Source: JAYKJB01 sp035284745 [NCBI: Candidatus Sericytochromatia bacterium]
Lineage (GTDB): Bacteria > Cyanobacteriota > Sericytochromatia > S15B-MN24
Length of the DNA stretch: 64,000 nucleotides
Assembly: GCA_035284745.1 (NCBI GenBank)
Contig: JAYKIL010000034.1
Span: 1-64,000, forward strand
Direction: 5' to 3'
A program made the translations under genes and the position numbers. This document shows, piece by piece, positions 2,436 through 54,203 of this stretch. The stretch's first letter is position 1. The number at the start of each line of letters is the position of its first letter. The notes beneath the pieces are model-generated. The model was not told where the DNA came from, did not search any database, and was given only the letters and a program-made list of their open reading frames with translations.

Positions 2436-3722
2436 ATGGGACTTTTAAAGGGTTCGAATCTTCGATTCACAACATCTGAGGCCATTGTAGGCGCGGATGT
2501 TATTTTGCCGACCGAGGGCAGTTCGCCCACGGGAGAAGTGGTGTCGACGGTTCCGCTGGAAAATCCTGAAAACGTTTCTGAGACTGTGTCTTGGGAAATT
2601 GACGAGGATGTCGATGACCTTTTTTCAGCAGAGGTGATTGTTGATGAGGAGGAACAAGGCGACAGTGAGTTTTGGCAAGCACCCGTGACCGCCTTTGAGA
2701 AGGTTCGTGAACAGGTCCTGCACGGTGGCGTGGAGGCTTCCGATATGGAGGCCAACGAACAAGGTGAACAGATTCAACAGGCGGCAGCCCCGCTGATGGA
2801 GAAGAGCTTGCGTCAAGCAGAGGATGAACTCCTCTCAGCCACTCCCGATGCTGATTTTTCGACCGTGGCACCCTTCGTCCAACGGAAGGTTGCGGCGGTT
2901 GTCGACCTCGAACTGATTGGTACAGTGAATGAGGTTCGTTGGACTCATTTGCAACGTGTGGAAAAGCAAGTGGTGGACGGAGCGGAAGATATCGCAAACG
3001 GTCTGGTCGCAGATTTTCCCGAGGGTGCCTTTATAGAGTTGATGTCTCGGCGCGAATCTATTCTCTCTGCGGCGCGCCTTGAGGCGGAACGCTTGGTCTT
3101 GGAGGCCATGACACAGAGTGCAGAAACGATGTCACAGGCGGAACAAGCCCGTGCTGCCGCGATGCAAGAGTTAGAAGCAGACCGCACGGCGATTCTGGAC
3201 GGTTTGCGGCAACAGGCCTACCAGGAGGGTTATCAGGAAGGCAAGTCTGCCGGAGAGGCCGAGGCAGCCCAATATATTTCCGATGCGATTCACAAGTTCA
3301 ATGAAATGGTCATGGCGTTTCCCGCCGCCGTTAAACAGAATGAAGAGAAATTGGTTACCTTAGCGCTGGAAATTGCGCGAAAAGTGATACATGAGGAAAT
3401 TTCACTTCAGCCGGAGATTGTTCAAAGTACGGTAGAGGCCGCTCTGAAGAGGGTTTCTGATCTTGAACAGGTGGTTGTGAAGGTGAATCCTCTAGATCTA
3501 GATTTGATTTTGCCTAAACAGGAATCTTTCAAAGCACTTGTGCCGGACGTGCAGAATTTTTCAATTGAGGGAAGTCATACCATTCAGCGTGGGGGCTGTG
3601 TGATTGAGACGAATTCGGGCAGCATCAACGCCACGATTCAAGCCCAACTCGGCATTGTAGATGAGATGTTCAAAAAAGTTCGCGCCGAGTATGAGGATGA
3701 ATTGTTAGGAGAAATCAATTAG
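2436..3722 (+). CDS. fliH: Flagellar assembly protein FliH with a long acidic N-terminal extension
   Basis: The last 200 or so residues match FliH/YscL: a helical region with repeated YQEGYQEGKSAGEAEA glycine-spaced segments near 265, followed by the conserved QNEEKLVTLALEIARKVI block and a C-terminal beta-alpha domain. FliH binds the FliI ATPase and restrains it at the flagellar export gate. The protein has 428 residues, against roughly 230-260 for typical FliH; the extra N-terminal part is acidic and apparently disordered (many Glu/Asp). The ATG at 2436 follows ggaaggaac. The stop codon abuts the fliI start, so the two are translationally coupled. Confidence 0.88.
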   Translation: MGLLKGSNLRFTTSEAIVGADVILPTEGSSPTGEVVSTVPLENPENVSETVSWEIDEDVDDLFSAEVIVDEEEQGDSEFWQAPVTAFEKVREQVLHGGVEASDMEANEQGEQIQQAAAPLMEKSLRQAEDELLSATPDADFSTVAPFVQRKVAAVVDLELIGTVNEVRWTHLQRVEKQVVDGAEDIANGLVADFPEGAFIELMSRRESILSAARLEAERLVLEAMTQSAETMSQAEQARAAAMQELEADRTAILDGLRQQAYQEGYQEGKSAGEAEAAQYISDAIHKFNEMVMAFPAAVKQNEEKLVTLALEIARKVIHEEISLQPEIVQSTVEAALKRVSDLEQVVVKVNPLDLDLILPKQESFKALVPDVQNFSIEGSHTIQRGGCVIETNSGSINATIQAQLGIVDEMFKKVRAEYEDELLGEIN

Positions 3723-5057
3723 ATGAGCGTGTCCGCTTCTGAGATTCGCTTCGATTTTGATAATTATATGTTCGCGCTCCAGGGCTTGGACACGATCCGT
3801 GCCAAAGGCGCCGTCGTTCAGCTGATTGGCCTGGTGATTGAGGCTTTGCTTCAAGGGGTCAGGATTGGTGAATTGTGTTACATCCGCTCGCAGGACAAGC
3901 AGCGAGTTTACCCGGCAGAGGTCGTTGGTTTTAAAGCGCGCAGGGTTTTGTTGATGCCTTTGGCTGATATTCAGGGCATTGGCGCCGGGTGCGAGGTTGT
4001 CGCGACCAATCGATTGGTTTCGGTGAAGGTGGGGCCACGCCTGCTGGGCCGCGTGGTGGACGGCATTGGTAATCCAATGGACGGTAAAGGGCCCATCATC
4101 GCTCAGGCGGAGTATCCTTTGGATAATGCTCCTCCGAATCCCATTCGTCGGGCACGCATCACGAATATTATGCCGGTGGGTGTGCGGGCCATTGATGCGT
4201 TTTTGACTTACGGAGAAGGACAGCGGATTGGTCTTTTCGCGGGTTCAGGCGTCGGAAAATCGACGCTCTTGGGGATGATTGCGAGAAACGCCAAAGCGGA
4301 TATCAATGTTTTGTGTCTGGTGGGTGAGCGTGGTCGTGAGGTGAATGAATTCATTGAGGATTCCATGGGAGAGGAGGGAATGGCTCGCTCCGTGGTGGTT
4401 TGCGCGACTTCTGATATGTCGTCATTGCTTCGCATGAAGGCTCCTCAGACCGCATCTGCGATTGCGGAGTACTTTCGCGACCAAGGCAAAAAAGTGTTTC
4501 TGATGATGGATTCCGTGACGCGTTTTGCGATGGCGCAGCGGGAGGTTGGCCTGGCTATCGGAGAGCCTCCCTCGACCAAGGGATACACGCCATCGGTATT
4601 TGCCACCCTTCCGCGTTTGCTCGAACGCGCCGGAATGTCGGATCGTGGTTCCATCACCGCCTTATATACGGTGTTGGTTGAGGGTGGCGATATGGAGGAC
4701 CCCATCGCGGACGCTGTACGCGGGATATTAGATGGCCACATTATCATGGCGAGAAAGATCGCTGATCAAGGGATTTATCCAGCGATCGATATTTTGCCCA
4801 GCGTCAGCCGCTTGATACAACAATTGCAACCCAAGGAGCAATATTTGGCGCAACAAGACGTCAGGACGATGATGGCCAATTTACGAGAGGTCCAGGATAT
4901 GCTCACCATCGGGGCATATGTGAGGGGGTCTAATCCTGATTATGACCGCGCGATTGCAATGAAAGACTTAATTAAGGATTTTTGCAAACAGAGAACGGAT
5001 GAAAAGTCTAACCTAGAGGAGGCTTGGGGATCCGTGCGAATGCTCGCCGGGCGTTAA
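3723..5057 (+). CDS. fliI: Flagellum-specific ATPase FliI
   Basis: At 444 residues this is full length for FliI/T3SS ATPases. It shows the Walker A motif GSGVGKST near 174-181, the catalytic GERGRE, the Walker B VFLMMDSVTR, and the family-typical PxxKGYTPSVF and QPKEQYL segments. It hydrolyses ATP at the cytoplasmic face of the flagellar export apparatus to help unfold and load export substrates. The start directly follows the fliH stop. A second export component, flhB, is 43 kb away in the same window, so the flagellar genes are dispersed. A non-flagellar type III ATPase is the alternative, but no injectisome genes are seen. Confidence 0.93.
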   Translation: MSVSASEIRFDFDNYMFALQGLDTIRAKGAVVQLIGLVIEALLQGVRIGELCYIRSQDKQRVYPAEVVGFKARRVLLMPLADIQGIGAGCEVVATNRLVSVKVGPRLLGRVVDGIGNPMDGKGPIIAQAEYPLDNAPPNPIRRARITNIMPVGVRAIDAFLTYGEGQRIGLFAGSGVGKSTLLGMIARNAKADINVLCLVGERGREVNEFIEDSMGEEGMARSVVVCATSDMSSLLRMKAPQTASAIAEYFRDQGKKVFLMMDSVTRFAMAQREVGLAIGEPPSTKGYTPSVFATLPRLLERAGMSDRGSITALYTVLVEGGDMEDPIADAVRGILDGHIIMARKIADQGIYPAIDILPSVSRLIQQLQPKEQYLAQQDVRTMMANLREVQDMLTIGAYVRGSNPDYDRAIAMKDLIKDFCKQRTDEKSNLEEAWGSVRMLAGR

Positions 5058-20300: not shown

Positions 20301-22655
20301 GTGAACCACCTGATGCCTGAGGCATCTCGTCGCTGGCAAGAAGTTGCTCTTCGATTGGGTCTTCTTGCCTGCCGTTCGGGCCTGCTTGATGATGACTGGG
20401 ACAGCCGTGCATTTTGGGGTTTGACCCGCCCGCCGGCAAGTCGAGAACAGGCTTTATCAAGAGAACTTGAGAGGGTCTGGGCCCCTATCTCCACGGGGTC
20501 GCCTCGCGGGTTTTTGGCCCTTCGTGCCCTCTATTTTGGTTACGAATGTTTGTTGTACGCGACCGTTGCCCGCATGCACGCAGAGGTACTTGCCTGTCGT
20601 GGTGAACTCGCAGGGCCGCAGGGACGGGAATTTCACCTGCGCGAGGCCTTGGTATTTCTGGGTTGCTTCTCCGTGGGAACGCAGAATGCGTCTATGGTCT
20701 GTCGGTTTCTCGCCGCCAAGTCACGGGAGACCGAATGCGCCATTGCTTCCCTATGGAATTTGGTGATGGAGTGGCAGCCATTTATGCTGGGCCGGGAACC
20801 TGGCCGGCAAGGCGATTTTTTCGGTGGGTTGTATCAACAGCTTTTGCCGCCGACGCTGCGCCACGCTTTGGGTGAGTTCTACACCCCCTCATGGTTGGTC
20901 GAGGCGGTCCTCGCGATCCTGCCCCCATCGGATGGATGGAATGCACTGGATCCGTGTTGTGGATCGGGTGCCTTTGTCGTGGGAATTGTGGACCAGCTGT
21001 TGGACGAGACGAAACGTTTGGAGCCGGAGGAGCGTTTGCACGCTGTCCTTGCAAGATTCGAGGCAGCGGATGTGAATCCTTTTGCGCTGATGACGACGCG
21101 GGCCAATCTTCTCCTGGCCTTGGGCCCACTGATGTGGCAAAACAAAATCGTGCCCCGGGAGGTGTCGCTGCCCGTTGTTGAACAAGATGCGTTGCTCACA
21201 AAACCTGGTCTGTATCGGCGCTTCGAACGCGTGGTCGGCAATCCGCCTTGGGTCGCCTGGCGCGATCTTTCTCCCCAATATCGGGAGCATTTGCGGGAAC
21301 ACGGCCTGGGCTCATCCCAGAGATTCGGGGATACCTACGTTGGGGGAACGGATATCAATGTGTGCATTTCTCTCTCGATGTCAGTATTGGAGGCCCGCGT
21401 CAGCGACGAGGGCGTGCTCGCATTTTTGATGCCCCGGCAACTTCTTCAATCGCGGGCTGCCAAAGATTTTCGGCGCTGGCGCTTGGGAGATGGAAGTGAA
21501 GTGTGTCTTCGACACGTCGACGATTGGACAGCGTTGCGCCCGTTCGATGCGGCCTGTGCTCCTGCGACTTATCTCATTCAAAGAGGGGCCTCCCCTCGCA
21601 AGAGTTGTGAGGTGCGGGTGTGGCGAAGTCGTGACCCAGGCATTCCCTTGTCCCGCAACCTCCACTGGGAAGAGGCCCGTCGCCAATTGGTCGTTGACAC
21701 CAGAATGGCCTTTGCCGCTGCGGGAGAGGGGGCTCCCTACGTGGTGGATTCCCCTGCGGCCTGGCGAGACTATTCCCCTTTTTTAGGTCTCACCGCTTAC
21801 CAGGGGCGTCGTGCAGTGGAAACGTCACCTCACGCGTTTTTCTGGCTGAAGGTGCTGGATGTGTGCGACGAGAACGGGACGAAGGTGCTGGTTGAAAATG
21901 CACAGAGTCGACGGGCTAAGATTGCCCTCCCGTCTTGGCGTGGCATTTTGGAGACCGATTGCCTGTTCCCATTTCTTCGCGGCCAGGATATTCAGCCTTT
22001 TCAGATTAAAGAGCGCACGGAAGTGGTGCTGCTGCCCCACAGTCCAGATTCGGGAACCCATGCCATTCACTGGGAACACCTGCCTGAGCACACGCGCAGT
22101 TATTTGGCGGCTTATGAGGACAGTTTGCGCGCGCGATCATCCTATCGCGAGTATCTCAAATCTCAGCCTTTCTATTCTTTATGGCGGGTTGGGCCTTACA
22201 CCTTTCAGCCCTACAAGGTCGTGTGGCCAGAAATGGGCGAATTACGGGCCGCGGTTGTTAGCATCGCGCCGGTGCCTTGGGGGGGACACAAGATGTTGGT
22301 GCCCGAAGGGAAAATTAACTTCATCGGCTTTGATTGTGCCGAGGCCGCTCATTTTGTTTGTGCTTGCCTCAATGCACCGATTCTGCGAAAAGCGTATGCG
22401 ATGAGTACTTCGCAAACGGGCCGGCCGGCCACATTGCCCCTGGCCATTCCTTTATACGACGCCCGGTCATGGACCCATCGGGCCCTGGCATCGTTGTCCG
22501 TTCGTTTGCACCAAGGGCCCGCACGCGCTGACCGGATCGCGCAAACCCTAGATTGGCTGGTGCGGCGTTGCATGCAGCCAGATGCTGCTCAGGGCTTTGC
22601 CATGAACAATGCGACATCGTCCGTGATGCCAGCCTCGACGATTCGCACCTTGTAG
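20301..22655 (+). CDS. Orphan N6-adenine DNA methyltransferase (Eco57I/TaqI-like, no nuclease seen)
   Basis: A 784-residue protein with the gamma-class order of motifs: motif X GEFYTPSWL at 191-199, motif I DPCCGSGAFV at 217-226 and the catalytic motif IV NPPW at 314-317. The remaining 450 residues would hold the target-recognition domain. The N-terminal 185 residues are helical and I see no PD-(D/E)xK nuclease, so it is not an obvious type IIG enzyme. It should methylate adenine at a specific site. Neighbouring genes encode no restriction enzyme, helicase or BREX/DISARM partner. The GTG start has a distant GAGG; an ATG at 20313 is the alternative. Its 3' end overlaps the convergent gene by 67 bp. 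Confidence 0.85.
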   Translation: MNHLMPEASRRWQEVALRLGLLACRSGLLDDDWDSRAFWGLTRPPASREQALSRELERVWAPISTGSPRGFLALRALYFGYECLLYATVARMHAEVLACRGELAGPQGREFHLREALVFLGCFSVGTQNASMVCRFLAAKSRETECAIASLWNLVMEWQPFMLGREPGRQGDFFGGLYQQLLPPTLRHALGEFYTPSWLVEAVLAILPPSDGWNALDPCCGSGAFVVGIVDQLLDETKRLEPEERLHAVLARFEAADVNPFALMTTRANLLLALGPLMWQNKIVPREVSLPVVEQDALLTKPGLYRRFERVVGNPPWVAWRDLSPQYREHLREHGLGSSQRFGDTYVGGTDINVCISLSMSVLEARVSDEGVLAFLMPRQLLQSRAAKDFRRWRLGDGSEVCLRHVDDWTALRPFDAACAPATYLIQRGASPRKSCEVRVWRSRDPGIPLSRNLHWEEARRQLVVDTRMAFAAAGEGAPYVVDSPAAWRDYSPFLGLTAYQGRRAVETSPHAFFWLKVLDVCDENGTKVLVENAQSRRAKIALPSWRGILETDCLFPFLRGQDIQPFQIKERTEVVLLPHSPDSGTHAIHWEHLPEHTRSYLAAYEDSLRARSSYREYLKSQPFYSLWRVGPYTFQPYKVVWPEMGELRAAVVSIAPVPWGGHKMLVPEGKINFIGFDCAEAAHFVCACLNAPILRKAYAMSTSQTGRPATLPLAIPLYDARSWTHRALASLSVRLHQGPARADRIAQTLDWLVRRCMQPDAAQGFAMNNATSSVMPASTIRTL

Positions 22656-38273: not shown

Positions 38274-38347
<74 letters not shown>

Positions 38348-38357
38348 CTCTTAAAAA

Positions 38358-38389
38358 ACGGACCCTGATAGGGGTCCGTTTTTTTTTGG
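38358..38389 (+). terminator. Rho-independent terminator of tRNA-fMet
   Basis: ACGGACCC (38358-38365) pairs with GGGTCCGT (38372-38379) followed by a run of nine T. The A-run before the stem makes it work in either direction. Confidence 0.9.
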
Positions 38390-38448
38390 CGCCATTTGAA
38401 TGCGTCGGTTTGGGTAAGATATCGAGGGGTTTACGCGAAGGACATGTT

Positions 38449-39879
38449 ATGGGCGATTCGCCGTATCTAGTGGTGTTGAGGCCGGGACGCGTGCCCGCTC
38501 AGGCGGTCGTATGGGGTGACCAAGCGCAGTGGACGATGCCACTTGGCGCTTTCGGCACCTCCGCCGATGACGCCTCAGATGCTGAGGCGCGTGCGTGGGC
38601 CGGCTTGATGGCCTCGCGAGAGGTCTTGTTGGCTGTGTGGGCCACCGTTGTGGGCCCAGAGAGCGGGGCCCCCCAGGTGCGAGCGGTTGAGGTGCGTCGC
38701 CTGTCGGGTGGTTTGTGGGCCTTTGAGCTTTCTCACGGTGGTGCCATTGTCGTTCCGAGCGCCTGGATTGGTGCGGAGATTGATGCATCGCTGGAAAGTC
38801 CACAGCCTCTCTTTGATGGACGCTGGTGGGTCTGGCCCGAAGCGTCGGTTGCAGTGGAGGTTGGGGACTTGTTGTTGCGCCAGTTAACGGGCGAGAAAGA
38901 GGGCGTTGGACTTTTCTGTGCGCCGCTGCCTGCTCTGGCAAGTGATGTGGAGGCCTTTAATCCACCTCGTGGGCCGCTTTTTGGTCTTGTGTTGGCGCGC
39001 CAAGGTCTGCTCGGGCGTTCGGCGCTCGCCGCCGCCCTGCAGGCCCAGCAGCGGAGTTTGGCTGCCGGGAAGCGGATTCGGTTGGGGGAAATTTGTATTT
39101 CGTTGGGATTGCTAGAACCCTACCAACTCAATTTTGCGCTCGCCTTTCAACACCGGGTGCAGGGCCTAGACCCCTCGGATCAAATTTTTGTTGATCAGGT
39201 GTTACAACTCGACTTGGCATCCCCCGCCTCCATGTTTTTGTTGCTAGACCGCAAGCTAGACAAAGAGCGTACCTTTCGTCAACTCGCGGTAGATGAGGGG
39301 ATTGTAAGTTCTGAATTCCTGGCGGCTTTTGAGGCGGATCCCTCTGCGGGGAACTCGGCCTTTTTTGCCGCCTTGCGCTCCGATGAACGTCCCGAATCTT
39401 CACCTCATCTGAGGCCTGATGAGAATTATCCGATTATGGAGGAGGCACCCGACATTGGCGAGCATTTGGGAGGAGCAGGGCTTCGCTCTTTGCTTGGGGC
39501 CATTTTGATGCGCGAGGAGTATCTCACGCGTGACCAACTTCATCTGGTTTTGTGTGAGCAAATACGCAGGCGTCGTGCGGGGAGCCCCATCGCCTTCGGT
39601 CAACTGGCAAGACAGCTCGGCTTTGTCGCGCAGGAGGATTTGGACTTTGCAGTTCGACTGCAAGCGCGATTGGAGGTAGGAACCACAGGCCCTAGGCCCC
39701 TTGGTTTATTTTTGATGGAATATGGCGTCGTGAAGCCTTCCCAACTCTCTGAGGCGCTTGATGAAGCCCTCAGCGAGGGGCAGCCGCTTGGTCAGGTCTT
39801 GGTGGGACGCGGTATGCTGACACCTGATCAGCTCAGAGTCTTCTTGGAGATGCAACGACGCGCGATGGAATTCGGATGA
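38449..39879 (+). CDS. Protein of repeated MshEN/GspE-N-like modules
   Basis: From the ATG at 38449 (AAGGA upstream) the protein has 476 residues. After an N-terminal beta-rich 190 residues it carries at least three copies of a short unit with L-G-x-x-L/I, a G-L/V, then x-x-Q-L: RLGEICISLGLLEPYQLNFAL, FGQLARQLGFVAQEDLDFAV, LGLFLMEYGVVKPSQLSEAL and LGQVLVGRGMLTPDQLRVFL. Such repeats (GspE N-terminal or MshEN) bind c-di-GMP in some type IV pilus ATPases. No Walker motifs are present, so it would act as an adaptor or sensor. HD-GYP proteins elsewhere in the window fit c-di-GMP signalling. Confidence 0.6.
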   Translation: MGDSPYLVVLRPGRVPAQAVVWGDQAQWTMPLGAFGTSADDASDAEARAWAGLMASREVLLAVWATVVGPESGAPQVRAVEVRRLSGGLWAFELSHGGAIVVPSAWIGAEIDASLESPQPLFDGRWWVWPEASVAVEVGDLLLRQLTGEKEGVGLFCAPLPALASDVEAFNPPRGPLFGLVLARQGLLGRSALAAALQAQQRSLAAGKRIRLGEICISLGLLEPYQLNFALAFQHRVQGLDPSDQIFVDQVLQLDLASPASMFLLLDRKLDKERTFRQLAVDEGIVSSEFLAAFEADPSAGNSAFFAALRSDERPESSPHLRPDENYPIMEEAPDIGEHLGGAGLRSLLGAILMREEYLTRDQLHLVLCEQIRRRRAGSPIAFGQLARQLGFVAQEDLDFAVRLQARLEVGTTGPRPLGLFLMEYGVVKPSQLSEALDEALSEGQPLGQVLVGRGMLTPDQLRVFLEMQRRAMEFG

Positions 39880-39964: not shown

Positions 39965-40459
39965 ATGGGAACAGGGCAGCTCGAAGGCTTCAAGAATCCA
40001 GGTTGGTCTATTTGGTTGGATCGCGCGGTCTGGCTGGCGTTGGCATTCCTGTTCCTTTACCGATGTGTTTTGCCGATGGGGTCTGAACCCCTGAGTGCTC
40101 GGATGACCACTTTGCGTGTAAAGACGGATGGAAGACCGGCCATGGTGGTTTTTGACGGTTCGAGATGACCGGCGTGTCTGGCCATGGGTCCCGTGGTCTC
40201 GCGTCTAGAGGATGAGTTTTCGGCACGTGTGTATTTTCGGCGGTATGTCTTGGACAAACTTCCCGCTGGAACACCCGGCCATCAAGAAGCATTTTCGTTA
40301 GCCCGGGACGTGGGCTTGGAGCTGACGCCCACCTACCTCGTCGTAAGGCCTGATGGTTCAATTCACGCCCAATTTCGCGGGATCACCAGCTACCTGAGCC
40401 TGCGGGAAGCGCTCGATGATGTGACCCGTCCCTTGCAGCGTTCCACGACGGGCCCTTGA
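39965..40459 (+). CDS. Thioredoxin-like protein with in-frame TGA at the first active-site Cys (candidate selenoprotein)
   Basis: Read through the TGA at 40166-40168, one frame of 164 residues runs from the ATG at 39965 to the TGA at 40457. It has one membrane segment (AVWLALAFLFLYRCVL, 21-36) and then a whole thioredoxin fold: strand GRPAMVVFDGSR, active site U68-P-A-C71, helix LAMGPVVSRLEDEF, strand ARVYFRRYVLD and a cis-proline turn LTPTYLVVRPDG. Thioredoxins have C-x-x-C here, so TGA replaces precisely the nucleophilic cysteine. A stem-loop with GGTC in its apex at positions 22-25 from the U (40187-40190) resembles a bacterial SECIS. The alternative is a nonsense mutation (TGC/TGT to TGA), which would make it a pseudogene. 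Confidence 0.7.
40180..40198 (+). promoter_or_regulatory. Candidate SECIS hairpin downstream of the in-frame TGA
   Basis: Bases 40180-40187 can pair with 40191-40198 (GGCCATGG with CCGTGGTC in antiparallel fashion, two wobbles), leaving GTC as loop. Counting U of UGA as 1, the G-G-U-C falls at 22-25, the place where E. coli fdhF carries G-G-U-C in its SECIS loop. The pairing is my manual fold. Confidence 0.5.
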
Positions 40460-40501: not shown

Positions 40502-40572
40502 GCCGGTGTGTTGTAATGGTAGCAAACGAGCTTCCCAAGCTTGGGGCGTGGGTTCGATTCCCATCACCGGCT
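40502..40572 (+). tRNA. tRNA-Gly (CCC)
   Basis: The acceptor stem GCCGGTG pairs with CACCGGC. The anticodon stem CGAGC/GCTTG encloses TTCCCAA with the anticodon CCC at 40534-40536, and the T arm has GGTTCGATTCC. CCA is not encoded. A short hairpin (40596-40611) with a distant T-run may end the transcript. Confidence 0.94.
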
Positions 40573-40682
40573 CTGAATAGGTCGCTTTGCCCTGTCCACG
40601 CTCCAACGTGGCGGAATGAGGTAAGGCGATCTTTTTTGTTTTTGGGATACAGTAGTCGCGGACAGTCTTGGGGGGAAATCAT

Positions 40683-40976
40683 ATGCAGATGGATGTTTTG
40701 AACATTGGTACGGATGATACGCGTGTTCGTTATACGTTGAACCGTCGGGAATGTGAACTGTTGATGGAAGCCTGCGCCAGTCTCCGCGAGTTGCGTTTTC
40801 CGGGCGCGCTGGATGATCTGCCTCAAATGTTCGATGAGGAGGATCTCACTCGCTCGCTGGGGTCGGAAAGCGCTGCTCAAGAGGTTTTGGGATTTATCGA
40901 GTTAGAACAGGCTTTTCATCAGGCACTTCATCTTTTTCCGGGCGGTCATTGCCACAGCGAGGATGAAGAGCACTGA
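40683..40976 (+). CDS. Small protein of unknown function
   Basis: A 97-residue acidic protein starting at the ATG at 40683, with GGGGGGA seven bases upstream; the longer version begins with TTG. It has a short beta stretch (TRVRYTLNRRECELLMEAC) followed by helices, and ends in a His/Cys/Glu-rich tail (GGHCHSEDEEH) that could bind metal. I do not recognise a family. It is two bases upstream of the FUSC-type gene and probably cotranscribed. Confidence 0.6.
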   Translation: MQMDVLNIGTDDTRVRYTLNRRECELLMEACASLRELRFPGALDDLPQMFDEEDLTRSLGSESAAQEVLGFIELEQAFHQALHLFPGGHCHSEDEEH

Positions 40977-48190: not shown

Positions 48191-49381
48191 TCAGGGTTCT
48201 TGGGCATCCTTTTCGTTTTGCTCTGACCCCCGTGGCATCGTTTCCGGCGCCGGCATCGGCTCTACATAGGCGGGTGCGAAGCTGTTAAGCGTGGCTGCAA
48301 GCGGCGGCAAAGCCGGTCGCTGACGTTTGCGCATGATGCCCGCGATGATTTTTGCGACCGCCACGAACAACTCGGACGGTATATTTTGTCCCACTTTGAC
48401 CTGTTCATACAGGGCGCGTGCCGTCGGTGGATCCTCAACGGTTGGGATAAAGTTTTCCTCTGCGATCTCACGAATGAGCAAGGCTTGGCGGCCTTTGCCC
48501 TTCGCAAGCACCAGGGGCGCTTTCATTCCGCGCTTAGGTTTATACTCGAGCGCCACTGCATAATGGGTCGGATTGGTGATCACGACGTCTGCATTGGGCA
48601 CTGCCTCCCGGGCGGCGCCAGACGATATTTCCATCATCTTCTGCCGTTGTTTGGCCTTGATGTGTGGATCGCCCTCGAGCTTCTTGTATTCATCCTTAAT
48701 TTCCTTGTCTGACATTTTGAGGCCCTTCCACCACTGCCAGCGTTCAAACAAGTAGGAGATGAAGGCAATGACCAGCATGAGCAACGCAATTTTTTTTGCC
48801 GCCTCGAGAATAAGGAACCCGATCAGCCCGAGTGCTCCGGTTGTGGTCAGACTGGTGCTCTGCAAAATGGAGGCCGCGTTGTCTCGTATGACGGTGTAGA
48901 TCAAATAGCCAATGGCAAGACACACCACCGTGGTCTTGGTGAGGTTGAAGAGTTGTTTGACCTTGAAAGGATTGACCTTGTTCTTGAAGCCTTTCACCGG
49001 ATCGATTTTTTCAAACTTCGGTTCAAGCGGTTTCAGGGTGATCAGCCAACCGACTTGGGCGTAAAGCACGACCAAGACGGTCAGCACGATGAGCAAGACA
49101 AAAGGGGCTGTTGTGATGACCAAGACCAGGACGACACGCCACAATAAAAGGCGCGCTTGGTTGACGCTGAGATCCTTGTACTCCGGAATGTTTCTCAGAA
49201 TTTCGTCAATGAAGGCAAACAGGTACTGGTAGGCAAATTGTGCGCTCCACGCCAGCGCGTAGGCAGAAACAAAAATAGTCGCCGCAGCAAGCAGGTCCTG
49301 AACCTTCAGGACATTTCCCTTTTTGCGCTCCTCGTCCAGTTTATGGGGGGTCGGATCGTGCTTTTTATTTTCGTCAGCCAC
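48191..49381 (-). CDS. flhB: Flagellar export-gate protein FlhB
   Basis: A 396-residue protein with the FlhB opening (DPTPHKLDEERKKGNVLK), four transmembrane segments and the C-terminal cytoplasmic domain containing the self-cleaving N-P-T-H in VVITNPTHYAVALEY. FlhB switches the export specificity from rod/hook to filament proteins. The GTG start lies 30 bases behind the cca stop. A perfect TATAAT (minus strand, 49395-49390) ends nine bases before the start, so the message could be almost leaderless. The C-terminal tail (about 50 residues) is Pro-rich and extends beyond typical FlhB. Confidence 0.93.
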   Translation of the reverse strand: MADENKKHDPTPHKLDEERKKGNVLKVQDLLAAATIFVSAYALAWSAQFAYQYLFAFIDEILRNIPEYKDLSVNQARLLLWRVVLVLVITTAPFVLLIVLTVLVVLYAQVGWLITLKPLEPKFEKIDPVKGFKNKVNPFKVKQLFNLTKTTVVCLAIGYLIYTVIRDNAASILQSTSLTTTGALGLIGFLILEAAKKIALLMLVIAFISYLFERWQWWKGLKMSDKEIKDEYKKLEGDPHIKAKQRQKMMEISSGAAREAVPNADVVITNPTHYAVALEYKPKRGMKAPLVLAKGKGRQALLIREIAEENFIPTVEDPPTARALYEQVKVGQNIPSELFVAVAKIIAGIMRKRQRPALPPLAATLNSFAPAYVEPMPAPETMPRGSEQNEKDAQEP

Positions 49382-51448: not shown

Positions 51449-51515
51449 CCCACAGACGATGCGCTCGTGGGGAGGTCGTGATCGCTTTGCGTAGCTGTTC
51501 AGGAGGACCTTTTTG

Positions 51516-52409
51516 ATGCTAAGAACTGCGCATTCCCTGTGGTTGGGGGCGTTCTTGGCGACGGCGTCGTTTTTCGCTCCGGCGGCTTACGCGTACACGC
51601 CCAAGGTCTTGCGGGTCGGTTTTGTCCCGTCGGAGAATCTCCAAAATATTCTCAAGAAGACGCGGCCCGTCATTGATGCCTTGCACAGAGAGTTGAAACT
51701 CCAAGTGGTGCCATTTGTCGCGACTGATTACACAGGTATTATCGAGGCCATGCGTGCCAACAAACTGGATGTGGCGTTTTTCGCCCCTGGCGCCTACGTG
51801 CTGGCTGAAAGTAAGGCCAACGCCCTCGTTATTCTCAAGGCACAACGCCACGGAAAGGCTTTCTTCTATTCTTCAATCATCACCCATCGGGATTCTGGCA
51901 TAAAGAAGTTGGCTGACCTGAAGGGAAAAACATTCGCCTATGTGGATCCTGCTTCGACTTCGGGCGGCGTGTATCCCAAGGTCATGTTTTTGAACGCGGG
52001 AATGAACCCGGAACGCGATTTTACTCGGGTGATCTATGCGGGCGGTCACGATGCCGCAGTGTTGGCTGTTCTTAATAAGAAGGTGGATGCTGCGGCAACC
52101 TTTGCGAATGATACGCAGGGAGAAGACACCGCCTGGACTCAGTTCCTTACGAAGCCGGGAGAGGCGCAAAAAATTGTGGCCGTGGCCTACAGTAAGCCCA
52201 TCCCCAGCGATCTGATAGCCGTTCAAAAAAATTTGGATGCTTCACTGATTAATAGGGTTCGCAAGGTATTCACGAAAATGAGTGCCACGCCGCAGGGACG
52301 AAAGCAACTGTGGGACCTTTACCGCATTGATGCTTTTGTGGATGCGACACCTGCTGATTTTGAACCCGTTCGCGAGGCGTTTAATCGGGTTGGTCTGCCG
52401 ATAAAATAG
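51516..52409 (+). CDS. phnD: Phosphonate/phosphite-type ABC transporter, substrate-binding protein
   Basis: A 297-residue PhnD/PtxB-family protein with a signal peptide (cleavage near AYA). The binding-lobe signature is RVGFVPSENLQNILKKTRPVIDAL, then VPFVATDYTGIIEAM and YVDPASTSGGVYPKVMFLNAG. It captures a phosphonate- or phosphite-like oxyanion in the periplasm and delivers it to PhnE. The start has a strong AGGAGG (51500-51505); the TTG one codon before it is less likely. First gene of phnD-phnC-phnE. Confidence 0.93.
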   Translation: MLRTAHSLWLGAFLATASFFAPAAYAYTPKVLRVGFVPSENLQNILKKTRPVIDALHRELKLQVVPFVATDYTGIIEAMRANKLDVAFFAPGAYVLAESKANALVILKAQRHGKAFFYSSIITHRDSGIKKLADLKGKTFAYVDPASTSGGVYPKVMFLNAGMNPERDFTRVIYAGGHDAAVLAVLNKKVDAAATFANDTQGEDTAWTQFLTKPGEAQKIVAVAYSKPIPSDLIAVQKNLDASLINRVRKVFTKMSATPQGRKQLWDLYRIDAFVDATPADFEPVREAFNRVGLPIK

Positions 52410-52429
52410 AATTTGGAGTTGTCTCTCTC

Positions 52430-53281
52430 GTGAACGTGACCCCGGTTGCCCCCAGTTCTCTCACCCAGGCCTTGTTGACGGTCGAGGGTCTTGCCAAATC
52501 TTATGGAGACGGCCCCTCGATCCTGCACGATGTGAATCTATCATTCCGAGAGGGTGAGTTTGTCGTTATTTTGGGACTCTCCGGCGCGGGTAAGTCTACT
52601 TTTCTGCGATGCTTGAACCGCTTGGTTGCTCCGACCTCAGGGAGAATCTTGGTTCAGGGAAATCTTTTGAAGGACTCCGCACAGGGCTTGGTAGACGTCG
52701 CGGCGCTGCCGGAACGAGAGCTCAGGGCGTGGCGTCGGCGCGTAGGGATGATTTTCCAGCAGTTTAATTTGGTGAAGCGCTTGTCCGTGCTTCAAAACGT
52801 TTTGTCGGGCAGTTTGGGTTATCAGCGTTTTTTCCCGAGTCTTTTGCGATGGTTTCCTGCTGCTGCCTACAAGCGTGCGCTCGCAAATCTTGAGCGGGTT
52901 GGCTTGCTAGAACAGGCTGAGCAACGGGCTGATCGACTGTCTGGTGGCCAGCAACAGCGTGTGGCGATCGCCCGGGCGTTGATGCAACAGCCCACGCTGA
53001 TTTTGGCCGATGAGCCTGTCGCCTCTCTGGACCCGAAATTGTCGGTCGTGGTGCTTGACACGCTCCAACGTGTGGCCCGTGAGGATCGAATTACGGTACT
53101 GGTTAGTTTGCACGTGCTTGAACTCGCCCGTCGCTATGCGGATCGTATCGTCGGGTTTCAAGGTGGGCGTGTTGTTTTCGATGGTCCCCCGGAGGCTTTA
53201 ACCGACGAGGTGGTGGAGTTGATTTATCGCCGTCCTGAGATATCCAGAGGGCCTGTCGTGGGAGTACAACCCGATGTCTGA
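52430..53281 (+). CDS. phnC: Phosphonate-type ABC transporter, ATP-binding protein
   Basis: A 283-residue ABC ATPase. It has Walker A GLSGAGKST, the signature LSGGQQQRVAIARAL, Walker B LILADEPVASLDP and the D-loop, with the PhnC-typical LRAWRRRVGMIFQQFNLV. It energises import by the PhnE permease. The GTG start has GGAG upstream. It overlaps phnE by eight bases. Confidence 0.95.
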   Translation: MNVTPVAPSSLTQALLTVEGLAKSYGDGPSILHDVNLSFREGEFVVILGLSGAGKSTFLRCLNRLVAPTSGRILVQGNLLKDSAQGLVDVAALPERELRAWRRRVGMIFQQFNLVKRLSVLQNVLSGSLGYQRFFPSLLRWFPAAAYKRALANLERVGLLEQAEQRADRLSGGQQQRVAIARALMQQPTLILADEPVASLDPKLSVVVLDTLQRVAREDRITVLVSLHVLELARRYADRIVGFQGGRVVFDGPPEALTDEVVELIYRRPEISRGPVVGVQPDV

Positions 53282-54203
53282 CTATATCCCGGCGGATCCT
53301 TTGCCAGCGAGGGGCGTTTCCAAAGGGGTACGGGCCTCACAGCGTGTCATCTCGTTCGCCGCCCTCGTGGGCCTGATGTGGTGGGCTTTCACGGGTGTGC
53401 AGGTGAATGTGGGGGAACTGGTCAGCGGCATGCCCCAGATGTTCGAGACTCTGGGAAGGATGGTGCCCCCTGATTTTAGTCGTGTGACGGACCCAGCCGT
53501 GTATGACAAACCTGCTGATTTGTCGGTGCCGCAACTTCTGTTACCGTTGCCCCTGGAGGGGGCCGCGGCGGATGCCAAGCAATATTGGTGGCAAAATACT
53601 TTTCCTCAGACCATTGTGGGGGCGACGCTTCAGACCATTCAAATGGCTTTTGCAGGAACCGTTTTGGCTTTGTTTGTTGCGTTCCCGATCGCTTTTTTGG
53701 GTGCCGTTAACACCACTCCACACCCCGCGGTATATCACGTCATCAAGTTGGTCACCAATTTTCTGCGAACCATCCCTGACTTCGCTGTGGCTCTCGTTTT
53801 AGTTGCCGCCATCGGCTTGGGCCCTTTTGCAGGGACCTTGGCGCTCGCGTTTCATACGGCCACCGTGCTCATCAAATTGTTTGCGGAGGCCATCGAGGGC
53901 ATTGATGAGGGCGTGGTCGAGGCACTGCGTGCTACGGGCGCTCGATACGCTCAGATACTGAGTTTTGCGGTGGTCCCTCAGGTGATGCCTGCATTTATTT
54001 CGTTTTTGCTCTACCGCTTCGAAACGAATATTCGTGCCGCGGCCGTTCTCGGAATGATTGGCGCTGGGGGCATCGGCTTTTTGATGGTGAGTGACTTCAG
54101 GATGTTCCAGTATCAACAAGCGTCCATGACGGTTTTGGTGTTGATTGCCTTGGTGATGTTTGTGGATTACCTGAGTGCACAATTAAGAAAACTGGTGACT
54201 TAG
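53274..54203 (+). CDS. phnE: Phosphonate-type ABC transporter, permease
   Basis: A 309-residue permease with about six transmembrane segments and the EAA-type loop EAIEGIDEGVVEALRATGARYAQILSFAVVPQVMP, which contacts the ATPase. It is the membrane channel of the PhnDCE importer. No C-P lyase, phosphonatase or phosphite dehydrogenase gene lies in the window, so the imported compound is uncertain. A hairpin follows (54211-54234). Confidence 0.93.
   Translation: MSDYIPADPLPARGVSKGVRASQRVISFAALVGLMWWAFTGVQVNVGELVSGMPQMFETLGRMVPPDFSRVTDPAVYDKPADLSVPQLLLPLPLEGAAADAKQYWWQNTFPQTIVGATLQTIQMAFAGTVLALFVAFPIAFLGAVNTTPHPAVYHVIKLVTNFLRTIPDFAVALVLVAAIGLGPFAGTLALAFHTATVLIKLFAEAIEGIDEGVVEALRATGARYAQILSFAVVPQVMPAFISFLLYRFETNIRAAAVLGMIGAGGIGFLMVSDFRMFQYQQASMTVLVLIALVMFVDYLSAQLRKLVT

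Follow-up and report, generated by a model that had tools for sequence, protein, structure and literature searches.

A probable UxxC thioredoxin-like selenoprotein gene in a class of Cyanobacteriota

The insertion of selenocysteine (Sec) at UGA codons by SelB and tRNASec is established in bacteria. Selenoproteins with a thioredoxin fold and a UxxC active site are already known, and are found in the tables of PMC9312934 and PMC13188914. Both tables list selenoproteins named thiol:disulfide interchange protein, with the PF13098 domain and a UxxC motif. A thioredoxin (Trx) selenoprotein with the PF00085 domain, also UxxC, is experimentally verified according to the table of PMC13188914, and the same table includes NF047660, NF040730, and NF041383 as NCBIfam families of thioredoxin-like selenoproteins. 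As for the phylum, a passage of a 2022 review (PMC9312934) counts Cyanobacteria among the few lineages that appeared to be without Sec. According to a passage of PMC5029168, some Prochlorococcus have SelD but no known selenium trait, and a passage of PMC9529120 gives a single Sec residue in a protein of Candidatus Melainabacteria. Because of the latter case, the wider group is not entirely without reports of Sec. A literature search on Sericytochromatia and selenocysteine, with supplementary tables outside its scope, found nothing. For Sericytochromatia and selenium, the selenium passage retrieved from PMC6349859 is an ethics statement, and passages of PMC12013277 mention neither thioredoxin nor Cyanobacteria.

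The window analyzed in this study is a stretch of 64,000 nucleotides. One frame on its forward strand (39965-40459) runs from an ATG at 39965 to a terminal stop codon TGA at 40457-40459, and its sole interruption is another TGA at 40166-40168. Translated through this TGA, the frame gives 164 residues with Sec at position 68, with no frameshift and no further stop in the 164 codons. Residues 67-71 are R-U-P-A-C, and the TGA sits at the first Cys of the thioredoxin CxxC motif (U-P-A-C). The preliminary description had reported two same-phase frames parted only by the TGA at 40166, a frame that stays open for 288 bases after it, and a thioredoxin fold with U-P-A-C where C-x-x-C is expected. Its coordinates, frame, and motif agree with the present translation, 288 coding bases lie between the TGA and the terminal stop, and the fold is borne out by the alignments described below. 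From translation, Pfam, a PDB profile match, and orthologues, the locus is annotated as a candidate gene for a membrane-anchored thioredoxin-like selenoprotein. The best explanation is that UGA 40166 is decoded as Sec and that the product is one anchored thioredoxin-like selenoprotein with Sec-Pro-Ala-Cys; I would put the probability of this reading at about 95%, judged from sequence. The selenoprotein interpretation of the preliminary description thus appears strongly supported.

The best Pfam match of the window protein is Thioredoxin_2 (PF13098; 26.1 bits, E = 1.1e-5), which misses the curated cut-off of 27 bits. With such a sub-cut-off score, the protein is best named thioredoxin-like and not a formal Thioredoxin_2 member. 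All five orthologous sequences match PF13098 at E ≤ 0.01 (best 3.1e-9), and four of the five match PF00085 at the same limit, while the window protein itself is under the PF00085 cut-off (14.5 vs 23.5 bits). A profile of the five orthologues finds PDB thioredoxins with a best E of 3.7e-9, and in three alignments the U lies over the first active-site Cys of PDB thioredoxins. Cys71 (40175-40177), invariant in the five sequences, would be the second active-site residue, the resolving Cys. Pro122 (40328-40330) stands where the thioredoxin fold has its cis-Pro, and T121-P122-T123 is invariant in all five; the cis conformation would be expected from the fold family. The broad features of the fold, an active-site UxxC for CxxC and a downstream Pro, are thus present in the PDB alignments and the invariant T-P-T. 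In the NCBIfam scan at E ≤ 0.01, the window protein matches no family, and nine families are matched by any of the five orthologues, all of them general models of the thioredoxin, DsbE, TlpA, and PDI types. The named NCBIfam families of thioredoxin-like selenoproteins gave no match to the window protein in the scanned release, which may not include NF047660, NF040730, and NF041383. A hydrophobic segment near the N-terminus (about residues 17-37, 40013-40075) was recognized by eye. The structure predicted from this one sequence has low quality (mean pLDDT 49.9, pTM 0.29), too low for a fold search, and its N-terminal helix (residues 12-35, low confidence) is the only part used here. The hydrophobic stretch and the weak model helix suggest a probable membrane anchor at the N-terminus.

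Which lineage does the window resemble? The neighboring AccA has 80% identity with its counterpart in 'Cyanobacteria bacterium RYN_339' (G001), the nearest genome for comparison. Among the best 80 of 527 AccA loci, the remaining 79 are 50-57% identical, and 41 of these are labeled Gastranaerophilales or Melainabacteria. NCBI places RYN_339 in unclassified Cyanobacteriota; I infer that its class is Sericytochromatia, a non-photosynthetic group. The window and RYN_339 have a common gene order: a holin-like gene, tRNA-Met, the thioredoxin gene, tRNA-Gly, a small protein, and an aromatic-acid-exporter-like gene that is 30% identical. In the window, the synteny markers on the forward strand are tRNA-Met (CAT, 38274-38348) upstream, and tRNA-Gly (CCC, 40502-40573) and the small conserved protein (40683-40976, 53% identical in RYN_339) downstream. 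The two loci differ in an extra tRNA-Glu in RYN_339 and in a gene of the window (38386-39879) for a 497-residue protein, which lies between tRNA-Met and the selenoprotein gene. This protein has a weak C-terminal DUF4388-like match under the cut-off; it is absent at the RYN_339 locus and has no relative in the scan of genome_contigs. A sigma factor on the same RYN_339 contig is 90% identical to a window sigma factor. Apart from the synteny with RYN_339, no common gene neighbors were seen by eye in the other three genomes with the gene (G010, G005, and G004).

Some other ORFs of the window were named by eye. FliH/FliI-type and FlhB-type export-like ORFs are at 2436-5057 and 48191-49381, and the FlhB-like ORF has a 60% identical match in RYN_339. 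A DNA methyltransferase-like ORF (20301-22655) has a 48% identical relative on the RYN_339 contig that carries the selenoprotein gene. Genes for a phosphonate-type ABC transporter (binding protein, ATPase, and permease) are at 51513-54203.

An orthologue search with the window protein against 18 genomes in the class of RYN_339 (E ≤ 0.001) gave matches in four: RYN_339 (38% identity), G010 (35%), G004 (34%), and G005 (28%). The preliminary description had proposed that homologues be aligned at this position, and the aligned codon is for Cys or is TGA in all four. TGA is at exactly this codon in RYN_339 (T-R-U-P-A-C) and G010 (T-H-T-U-P-A-C), and TGC is at the aligned codon in G005 (H-C-P-S-C) and G004 (Y-C-P-S-C). 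An in-frame UGA is thus aligned with a homologous Cys, with coding conserved on both sides; three of the five sequences have TGA and two have TGC. Between the window and RYN_339, the amino-acid identity is 31% upstream of the TGA and 42% downstream, and in both parts the third codon position is the one that differs most. Thus, both halves have been kept as protein. As for TGA counts that were set aside, the single TGA counted in the G004 and G005 genes is the terminal stop, since the query ended in a stop residue, and the two counted in RYN_339 are the Sec codon and the terminal stop. In G177 and G332, the proteins are ordinary CxxC ones, and the TGAs fall at their start or ahead of it.

Could the gene be a decaying thioredoxin pseudogene in which the Cys codon has mutated to a stop? 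The change from TGC to TGA needs only one base. In addition, at E ≤ 0.001 the window protein finds nothing in five Sec-positive relatives (G002, G003, G008, G009, and G011), so the gene is dispensable. However, two well diverged genomes, RYN_339 and G010, have the identical TGA in intact frames, conservation is higher downstream of the TGA than upstream, and the window gene has neither a frameshift nor another stop. A pseudogene is therefore very improbable, and it is the best of the alternatives to a selenoprotein gene.

The selenoprotein gene was also sought more widely. In a profile search of the phylum, in which at most nine candidates per genome were scored, 236 of 386 genomes have some match at E ≤ 1e-6. 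The four orthologues score 196-223 bits, which is high by construction because the same sequences built the profile, and the next match scores 54.6 bits. Twenty-six weaker loci were fetched, and all 15 of those that were read have CxxC. The Sec-positive genomes G002, G003, and G011 have weak profile matches (E from 4e-7 to 8e-7) outside these 15 loci. The best matches outside the class include membrane-anchored cyanobacterial CxxC thioredoxins, which I take to be of the HCF164/TxlA type. The window protein has no match in viral_contigs and three weak ones, at most 31% identical, in plasmids.

The distribution of the Sec machinery was compared with that of the TGA codon. selA and selB are over the cut-off in the same seven of the 18 class genomes (RYN_339, G002, G003, G008, G009, G010, and G011), and selD in these seven plus G007. 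RF01852 is over the cut-off in eight of the 18. At the best locus of each, ARAGORN found tRNA-SeC (anticodon TCA) in the seven selA genomes and tRNA-Ser in G007, where the RF01852 score is barely over the cut-off. The preliminary description had called for a look at selA, selB, selC, and selD: among the relatives, both TGA-bearing genomes have selA, selB, and selD over the cut-off and a tRNASec with the UCA anticodon, while the TGC-bearing G004 and G005 have none of the four over the cut-off. Missing sequence could in part explain the latter. All other class genomes have sub-cut-off matches for selB, selD, and the tRNA, which presumably reflect related families, other elongation factors among them. 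With two TGA and two TGC genes, a perfect match between codon and machinery arises by chance in 1 of 6 cases; this match carries weight together with the remaining evidence and not alone. The window's own genome would be expected to have the Sec machinery of its relatives.

The SelA sequences of the seven Sec-positive genomes are 49-85% identical to each other, which is not the pattern of one shared contaminant. Across the phylum, with 386 genomes sampled, selA exceeds the cut-off in these seven and in none outside this class. In seven of the eight genomes with SelD over the cut-off, the selD gene has an in-frame TGA in a U-x-x-K context, and that of RYN_339 has Cys. The table of PMC13188914 gives U-x-x-K as the motif for SelD selenoproteins already known. 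By eye, a hairpin follows the TGA in the seven SelD genes, with a G-C-closed, GU-containing loop (GGU) in six and CGUGC in G007. G007, with its TGA-containing SelD and with selA and selB under the cut-off, was not counted as Sec-positive; the genome may be incomplete, or its Sec system may be in the course of loss.

For the window's own genome, ordinary suppression of the UGA, or its reassignment to an amino acid other than Sec, is a further alternative. However, TGA is the terminal stop of 11 of 31 control ORFs in the window, the two relatives that have no sel genes over the cut-off carry Cys at the aligned position, and the relatives with TGA carry the UCA-anticodon tRNASec with SelA, SelB, and SelD. 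This alternative has hardly any probability left.

A bacterial SECIS-type hairpin was found at 40180-40198 (forward strand), where the preliminary description had placed it; counting from the U of UGA, its GGUC is at nucleotides 22-25. The bSECIS rules published in PMC13188914 require 3-9 nt in the loop, 4-16 bp in the stem, a G within the first two positions of the loop, a UGA-to-loop distance of 16-37 nt, and an MFE ≤ -7.5. The window hairpin, with a stem of 8 bp, a GUC loop (GGUCC if the closing pair is included), a distance of 19 nt from the UGA, and -10.1 for the hairpin alone, lies within all of these limits, and the bSECIS check suggested in advance came out in its favor. The 42-nt fold of the window has -19.5 kcal/mol, with a lower stem of 40171-40176/40200-40205. 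The hairpin of RYN_339 has the same core (-10.0), and that of G010 differs (6 bp, spacing 23 nt, loop GGUCU, -10.1). The scorer, which counts unbroken stems only, finds a hairpin of this type in three of three TGA genes and in neither of the two TGC genes, whose best values are -1.0 and -6.5. In free folding, the hairpins of the window and RYN_339 are present at 42 nt, and that of G010 only from 48 nt on. The first two are alike in sequence and should not be taken as independent.

How often do such hairpins occur by chance? The background set comprised 31 window ORFs picked from the ORF list, with 12,366 in-frame codons. At -7.5, which is the published energy limit, hairpins follow 600 of the 12,366 codons, 7 of 113 Cys codons, and 1 of 11 TGA stops, and are not rare in the window. 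At ≤ -10 kcal/mol with a G[G/U] loop, these numbers fall to 74 of 12,366, 1 of 113, and 0 of 11, where the -10 line is not a published one but was set within the same analysis, and RYN_339 falls exactly on it. I also scanned all 2140 TGA triplets on both strands for an upstream start, 40 open codons downstream, and a hairpin limit of -9, values chosen with the candidate in mind. Four pass, and 40166 is the sole one with known homology across the TGA, homology having been looked at for 40166 alone. Identical synonymous codons between the window and RYN_339 number 4 of 6 in the hairpin, 13 of 27 downstream, and 5 of 17 upstream, which is too little to claim nucleotide-level selection on the hairpin. 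Taken together, the downstream conservation, the TGA at the same codon in two genomes, and the rarity of hairpins of ≤ -10 kcal/mol with a G[G/U] loop form a pattern beyond chance. The same facts bear on a sequencing or assembly error at 40166: the window rests on a single assembly, but the separate genomes RYN_339 and G010 have TGA at the same codon, and a SECIS-type hairpin follows it, which makes an error exceedingly unlikely. Finally, an in-frame ATG lies 15 bases past the TGA, but two products, a membrane peptide of 67 residues and a protein of 91 residues from ATG 40184, are scarcely credible, as the Cys orthologues span this point as single proteins and the 91-residue form would be without both active-site residues.

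What was computed directly is the fold family, the exchange of Sec and Cys, the agreement with the Sec machinery in the relatives, and the hairpin. For a selenoprotein at this locus, Sec insertion, topology, electron donor, and substrate type would be as follows. SelB and the UCA-anticodon tRNASec would decode UGA 40166 as Sec with the help of the downstream hairpin. The product would have an N-terminal membrane anchor and a thioredoxin-like domain, most likely outside the cytoplasm. The Sec selenolate would attack an oxidized substrate (a disulfide, a sulfenic acid, or similar), Cys71 would resolve the mixed selenosulfide, and a CcdA-like carrier would re-reduce the enzyme across the membrane. 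The fold, the Sec-x-x-Cys site, and the anchor predict that the protein is likely an extracytoplasmic reductase of disulfides or similar oxidized groups. CcdA-sized DsbD_TM proteins (frames of 252-275 residues) were found in all four gene-bearing genomes. They are a possible electron donor, although they speak weakly for this role because they are common in control genomes, too (10 of 14).

The gene very probably encodes a real selenoprotein. Its kind is known; for its lineage, the literature searched describes no Sec decoding. With it, the membrane-anchored UxxC thioredoxin-like selenoproteins gain an orthologous group, and the relatives put a full Sec-decoding system into a class of Cyanobacteriota. 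A wider proposal is tentative, and I hold it to be somewhat more doubtful than probable: one class, which would be Sericytochromatia, decodes Sec unlike the rest of the sampled phylum, and has its own family of membrane-anchored thioredoxins that use it. Sec may then be an old trait of the phylum that was lost in oxygenic Cyanobacteria, with Sec and Cys exchanged as the machinery was kept or lost. Sec and Cys orthologues alongside the presence or absence of the machinery offer a natural test of the timing of Sec loss or gain in a redox enzyme. Standard gene calling splits such genes at the TGA, as seen in the ORF list of the window, and the function would go unnoticed.

How does the window protein compare with the known systems? 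Several of the best matches outside the class, of the presumed HCF164/TxlA type, likewise combine a hydrophobic N-terminus with a thioredoxin domain. In contrast to the window protein, they have CxxC in all 15 loci read, and reach at most 54.6 bits with the profile. Compared with the thiol:disulfide interchange selenoproteins, the window protein has an N-terminal hydrophobic anchor and no NCBIfam match at E ≤ 0.01. It shares with them, by their tabulated description only, the Pfam domain of its best hit (PF13098) and a UxxC motif with Sec first. The Trx selenoprotein differs in that the window protein is sub-cut-off for PF00085 and has an N-terminal hydrophobic segment. Yet, as far as the table describes the former, both would have a thioredoxin fold in which Sec replaces the first active-site Cys.
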